From Chloroflexota bacterium (GTDB lineage Bacteria > Chloroflexota > UBA6077 > FW602-bin22): a DNA stretch of 54,135 nt. The DNA lies in the NCBI GenBank assembly GCA_016875715.1, contig VGOZ01000010.1, positions 1-54,135 on the forward strand. The letters run 5' to 3'. A program made the position numbers and the translations under genes. Each line of letters begins with the position of its first letter. Positions within the stretch are counted from its first letter, which is position 1. Below the pieces are notes generated by a model. It did not search any database. It saw only the letters and a program-made list of their open reading frames with translations, and was not told where the DNA came from. Shown in pieces: positions 18,453-19,289 of the stretch.

Positions 18453-18998
18453 TCACGAGGTGACCGTCGCCGTCACGGAGAACAGGATCGTCTGCCCGGT
18501 GGATGTCTTGAGGGAGACGCTGCGCTCCCAGGGACCTACCGCGCTCGGCCCGTGGGCCGTCGGGTCGATCGTCACCTCAAGCTGTGCCGGGACACCCGGC
18601 GTCAGCGTCCAGCGTTGCCAGCCGGGCGTCCCGGGCGACGGAAGAGGACCAGACCAAGGGCTGGATCGGTCCGCCTGCACGAGGCGAGCACGCGTGCACG
18701 CTCAAGTCGTGCCGAGGTCGGTCACGGTCACATCGGTCCGGATCGCGAGCGGAAAGCTCGTCCGGAGAGGCCCATCCTGCATCCGGACGTTCCCGAAAGC
18801 GTGACCGGTCCGTTCGGCAGTGAGAGACTGGCCGGGCGCGGCCGGGGGCAAGGAGATCGTCGTCACCACGATGAGGCCAAGCGCGAGCGCGAGAGCCGCG
18901 GGCAGCCCCCATTTCCACCTTGCGGCTGGATGGGAGGATTTCGAGGATGTCATCGCGCGCCGAGACGCGCCGATCCGTTCGCGCGCTTCTCCAGCCAT
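18453..18998 (-). CDS. DUF1573-like exported protein with in-frame TGA at the conserved CxC motif (candidate selenoprotein)
   Basis: One 182-codon frame from the ATG at 18998 (GAGGAG six bases before it) to the TGA at 18453, interrupted by a single TGA at 18702-18704. The N-terminus has a basic stretch and one membrane helix (WGLPAALALALGLIVVTTIS). The immunoglobulin-like part follows: FGNVRMQDGPL, then VTVTDLGTT-TGA-ACTRARL, and after it LTPGVPAQLEVTIDPTAHGP and VGPWERSVSLKTSTG. Related DUF1573-type proteins have a TSCMCT-like motif here, so the TGA stands exactly on the first cysteine and the second is kept, giving U-x-C. Nonsense mutation of a TGC/TGT codon is the alternative. The strong ribosome site and unbroken frame on both sides favour a translated gene. 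Confidence 0.6.
18672..18698 (-). promoter_or_regulatory. Stem-loops just after the in-frame TGA (possible bacterial SECIS)
   Basis: On the minus strand, CGCC at 18686-18683 pairs with GGCG at 18675-18672, enclosing a 7-base loop (UCGUGCA) that starts about 19 bases after the UGA. That spacing fits bacterial SECIS elements. A competing 6-bp stem (TGCACG with CGTGCA) begins only three bases after the UGA. The stems are short and GC-rich DNA forms such structures easily, so this is suggestive only. Confidence 0.3.
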
Positions 18999-19289
18999 CT
19001 GGACTCCTCATCATACCCGTGCCCCTAAACCGCATCGAGAATTCGAGAGCCGACGTGATCCCTCCGTCGCCAGCCAGGTGGGACGATGTTCGGTACATCG
19101 AGACCGCGTGCACCCCGTCCGCCCTTTCGTTCTGGACGGGGCGGGTTCGCAACGCTGCGGAAGTGGCGCATGGTCTATGGCCCAGAGCACGACGAACAAA
19201 GCCGAGGCGATTGCGCGACGGCAGACCCGCGGTGAGGCGGCTGCCGGTAGTGACGTCGGCGATCGCTCCGGTCAAGGCCGAGATGTGGT

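Follow-up and report, generated by a model that had tools for sequence, protein, structure and literature searches.

A probable selenoprotein of a divergent DUF1573-like subfamily in Chloroflexota

The window analyzed in this work, a stretch of 54,135 nucleotides from a Chloroflexota genome assembly, carries on its minus strand a gene of 181 codons plus a TGA stop (18453..18998) that is conserved over its full length in seven relatives (L040-L046). The gene starts with an ATG at 18998, preceded at a distance of 5 nt by an AGGAG ribosome-binding site (19004..19008, minus strand), and terminates with the stop codon at 18455-18453. Its frame is interrupted by exactly one TGA at codon 99 (18702..18704, minus strand), where the local reading is T-T-U-A-C-T, the U standing for this TGA; it is followed by Cys101 (18696..18698, minus strand), the invariant second residue of a UxC pair. 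The encoded protein has a basic N-terminus, a single hydrophobic segment and then a beta domain. The hydrophobic segment, at about residues 30-50 (18849..18911, minus strand), is a membrane anchor predicted from the translation, with basic residues on its N-terminal side, and the beta domain occupies residues 59-180 (18459..18824, minus strand). A preliminary description of this DNA had recognized, without naming the strand, a single frame with a good ribosome site, an anchor and a beta domain that continues unbroken around the TGA; this is indeed the case for the minus strand, and the flanks on both sides are conserved in seven other genes. No signs of decay were found in the gene.

Homologs of the gene were collected at several taxonomic levels. 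Searches within the order and the class revealed three relatives, all with a single TGA: G005 encodes two of them and G012 the third, both being genomes other than that of the window. A phylum search with the alignment of these three identified a fourth relative in G179; two weak matches from the phylum search (L036 and L037) were rejected as relatives on inspection. The main scan covered one genome per species for 84,980 species and used as a query only the residues after the TGA, with the seeds [MAT]CT[RKQ]ARLVQ and [LV][ED]Vx[IV]DP[AT]AH. Since these seeds exclude the TGA codon, the scan could find Cys forms as readily as Sec forms. The scan returned eight loci, partly overlapping with the genes already found, all of them in Chloroflexota assemblies and all with TGA at the Sec column. 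Seven of these loci are the full-length L040-L046, which come from six other assemblies and share 34-48% identity with the window protein. Together with the window gene they form an alignment of eight genes with TGA in the same column (8/8), and the remaining locus, the fragment L047, has it as well, which answers the question raised in the preliminary description of whether other species carry TGA at this position. Sec99, Cys101 and His149 are among the invariant residues of the alignment, Met often stands directly after Sec, and the consensus around Sec in the relatives is [ST][ST]-U-[MATS]-C-T-x-A-R-L-V-Q. No close relative with Cys at the Sec column was found in the scan of 84,980 species genomes, and an earlier scan of genome contigs with the full protein, in which Cys was substituted for Sec, produced no match.

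Two additional observations were made on these genomes. The fragment (L047:3980-4258) contains the family sequence around Sec, TTUMCTRARLVQ...GMPMP, lacks the upstream half, and runs into a sequence that we take, by eye, to be phosphoglycerate kinase; it is therefore either a fragment or remnant of the gene or an assembly chimera. The genome G005, which belongs to the same family as the window genome, encodes two Sec-containing paralogs of the window protein (L018/L040 and L020/L045).

The domain downstream of the anchor is related to DUF1573. The sole Pfam match of the window protein is DUF1573 (PF07610; 17.6 bits, E 0.0039), which is below the gathering cut-off of 26.1, and PF07610 is matched by all five family members scanned, with the best E of 2.1e-4. 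The PDB sequence search gave no match, the NCBIfam search gave no meaningful model, and no other DUF1573 protein was found with PF07610 in the source genome. In the hhalign comparison between the profile of eight Sec genes and four Cys-type DUF1573 domains (probability 98, E 1.5e-13), Sec is aligned with the first of the two Cys residues of CGC in the SCGCT motif, and the DPxxHG region is aligned as well, in agreement with the initial proposal of a DUF1573-like protein whose TGA replaces the first Cys of a CxC motif. The nearest homolog with a sense codon at the Sec site is encoded in G198; this two-domain DUF1573 protein reads LTSCGCT there. The same proposal had mentioned relatives with TSCMCT-like sequence, which is not what we found, as the nearest relatives carry TGA and the Cys form occurs, as SCGCT, only in more distant DUF1573 proteins; the expectation of a conserved Cys at this column is thus borne out for these distant homologs and not for the close ones. 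In the AlphaFold2 model the block pLDDT is mostly above 90 over the domain and low in the anchor region, and the Foldseek neighbors of the model are ASH/PapD-like Ig domains and 2qsv, a Porphyromonas gingivalis protein of unknown function.

Analysis of codon usage points to a constraint on the nucleotide sequence just after the TGA, in the region expected to hold a SECIS. In pairwise comparisons of the eight genes, positions with the same residue use the identical codon in 63% of cases within the 12 codons after the TGA, versus 37% before it and 39% beyond. The bacterial SECIS model, as outlined in PMC13188914, has a loop of 3-9 nt, an upper stem of 4-16 bp, a G in the first two loop positions, a spacing of 16-37 nt and an MFE of at most -7.5 kcal/mol. 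In the window gene the SECIS-like hairpin TCGCCT-CGTGC-AGGCGG (18671..18687, minus strand) has a stem of 6 bp, a loop that starts 20 nt after the TGA, and a G at the second loop position. In all eight genes the best hairpin that conforms to the model geometry has its loop start 20-21 nt past the TGA and a G at one of the first two loop positions, i.e. at a SECIS distance, as had previously been noted for stem-loops of the window gene. The native hairpins are more stable than those obtained by recoding the genes synonymously with local codon usage (Stouffer z -4.5, which is not an exact probability as the eight genes are related), and the free-folding version of the test gives z -3.9. The hairpin of the window gene is by itself unremarkable (recoding p 0.21), and its stem-loop reaches -6.6 kcal/mol versus -7.5 kcal/mol in the model; by perfect-stem energy, 5/8 hairpins attain -7.5 kcal/mol, and that of the window gene is among the three falling short. 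Pair counts on the fixed alignment of the eight genes revealed no compensatory base-pair changes in the hairpin, and the RNAalifold consensus contains a weak alternative helix only. The stem of L043 is kept through a one-base register shift that is missed by such fixed-alignment counts, which is suggestive.

The source genome (3.38 Mb in 171 contigs, 94% complete, 5.5% contamination) was searched for the Sec machinery, as the preliminary description had advised, and all four components are present: selA (530 bits), selB (303 bits), selD (385 bits) and a tRNA-Sec that scores 73 bits, above the Rfam threshold, and is also called as tRNA-Sec with the UCA anticodon by ARAGORN. A tRNA-Sec above the cut-off, with the UCA anticodon, was likewise detected in all seven relatives' genomes searched. 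The selD gene of the source genome (L026, C1:2679-3605, minus strand) has its own in-frame TGA near the N-terminus, in the context GAG-U-ACK, at a position that we take to be the active-site Cys site, i.e. this would be a Sec-containing SelD. The TGA in selD suggests that the source organism decodes UGA as Sec in other genes too. As selA is above the cut-off in 320 of 400 Chloroflexota genomes sampled, the machinery by itself is not discriminating; it is the conserved TGA that discriminates.

We conclude that the mid-gene TGA of the window gene very probably encodes selenocysteine, incorporated at codon 99 (a probability of about 0.96, as judged from comparative sequence analysis), and we infer that the full-length protein is made. 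In the proposed mechanism, SelB guided by the hairpin located ~15-31 nt downstream would bring selenocysteinyl-tRNA-Sec to UGA codon 99. The product, 181 residues long, would be held in the membrane by a single N-terminal anchor and would expose the Sec-x-Cys pair on an extracytoplasmic Ig-like domain of the DUF1573 type.

Gene neighborhoods of the relatives allow us to propose a functional context for this pair. L043 is preceded by a multicopper oxidase gene and followed by genes for a cupredoxin, a CcdA/DsbD-like protein, a YHS protein and a heavy-metal P-type ATPase. The neighbors of L041 are a cupredoxin and then a two-component system, a cupredoxin gene lies directly upstream of L046, and a heavy-metal (Cu-type) P-type ATPase is encoded downstream of L040. 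Copper genes are therefore located near four of the seven relatives (L040, L041, L043 and L046), and in three of them (L041, L043 and L046) no identified gene of the same strand lies closer than the cupredoxin. CcmF and DUF2933 are encoded near L044. Among the neighbors scanned, no copper genes were found for L042, L045 and the window gene, which is surrounded by genes for amidohydrolases, a Rieske protein, an MFS transporter and an aldo-keto reductase.

These neighborhoods, in which four of the seven relatives have genes for a cupredoxin, a Cu-type P-type ATPase, a multicopper oxidase or a CcdA/DsbD-like protein close by, are the reason to propose a role in copper handling. The UxC pair would then be an extracytoplasmic selenol/thiol site acting by redox or by Cu(I) binding, a possibility to which we give somewhat less than even odds. 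Sec99, Cys101, His149 and the Met after Sec are plausible soft-metal ligands, and the combination of copper neighbors with residues of the soft-metal type favors a copper-handling site, the main competing proposal being a general thiol oxidoreductase. According to the latter explanation, which competes with the copper role only, the protein is a real selenoprotein that functions as a general extracytoplasmic thiol/selenol oxidoreductase, such as a disulfide reductase fed by CcdA. We consider this a serious minority prospect, as the UxC motif is of the redox type, the gene for a CcdA/DsbD-like membrane protein is found two genes away from L043, and L044 has CcmF in its vicinity; however, the CcdA-like neighbor is found in only one of seven relatives, in contrast to the cupredoxin in three of them and the Cu-type ATPase near L040. 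A more specific version of the copper-handling role, namely an obligately Sec-containing extracytoplasmic Ig-fold family whose Sec-x-Cys pair would bind or reduce copper, i.e. a selenoprotein copper chaperone or reductase on a non-thioredoxin scaffold, is less likely than not.

Explanations that dispense with selenocysteine are far less probable. The TGA might be a lesion in what was once a Cys codon, caused by pseudogene formation or by a sequencing or assembly error, and the fragmented assembly with its 5.5% contamination, as well as other broken genes seen nearby by the earlier reader, are in line with such an origin. In contrast, all seven full-length relatives, which come from six other assemblies, have TGA at this column, and the frame is conserved on either side of it at 34-48% identity, which speaks strongly against such an origin. 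A lesion or sequencing error does not explain a TGA that recurs in this way and is followed by a stretch of synonymous conservation, and we regard this origin as very improbable. There is just as slight a chance that the UGA is read as another residue, either as Cys by a UGA-decoding tRNA-Cys, which would be compatible with the Cys homologs that indicate an acceptable Cys at the Sec site, or as Trp by readthrough, given that the genome has a canonical tRNA-Sec with the UCA anticodon and complete selA/selB/selD, and that the window gene itself terminates at TGA, i.e. UGA is not generally reassigned.

Assignment of Sec to codon 99 adds to the prokaryotic selenoproteome a well-supported and apparently Sec-only subfamily, whose genes are truncated at the TGA by standard annotation. 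The family lies outside the thioredoxin fold, which dominates known selenoproteins, and through it a connection between selenium and copper at the cell surface becomes open to testing.

The preliminary description knew of no selenoprotein in this family, a claim that has to be withdrawn, since a DUF1573 domain-containing selenoprotein with the motif UGC, from the Olavius algarvensis delta symbiont, is already catalogued in two reviews, where it is credited to Zhang and Gladyshev 2007 (PMC9312934, PMC13188914). Represented by CAB1076174.1 and MDJ0815992.1, it belongs to the same Pfam domain family as the window protein and, judged by the printed motif only, has Sec as the first residue of a C-x-C pair. 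The differences are as follows: i) the middle residue of the pair is G in the catalogued motif, whereas it is M, A, T or S in the window family, and ii) the window protein scores below the Pfam cut-off, the members of its family are all from Chloroflexota, and the collection scanned yielded no close Cys form. Cys-type DUF1573 proteins, such as L035/L048, L049 and L050 (PF07610, SCGCT-like), share the homologous domain and the CxC pattern with the window family, and some of them the DPxxHG motif, but they have Cys in place of Sec and, in most cases, a shorter loop from CxC to the next strand.

A second group of DUF1573 proteins with one in-frame TGA each was observed in Chloroflexota (L052, L063, L064, L071 and L077, with further representatives in G317, G006, G258 and G030). 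In all five sequences read, the TGA lies in a G-C-U-P (GCU-PP) motif, and in most of the five a Met/His-rich stretch such as MHEGMGGPH is located downstream. This group shares with the window family the phylum, the domain and the single in-frame TGA, but its motif is different from that of the window family, as well as from the UGC of the sole DUF1573 entry found in the reviews (PMC9312934, PMC13188914). The profile comparison between the two groups detected no significant similarity, and the GCU-P group is best regarded as a branch separate from the window family.

In the 2026 table (PMC13188914, Table 1), the UxC entries found are Thioredoxin-like Sec.2 (PF13192) and the SO_0444 Cu/Zn efflux transporter (NF033936). 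Both resemble the window family in the UxC motif, and the latter also in its link to metals, but they are assigned to other families. As the only UxC entries found there belong to other families, the Chloroflexota branch appears uncatalogued in the open-access literature searched. What appears new is a divergent and apparently Sec-only DUF1573-like subfamily in Chloroflexota, predicted from its sequences and often encoded near copper genes.
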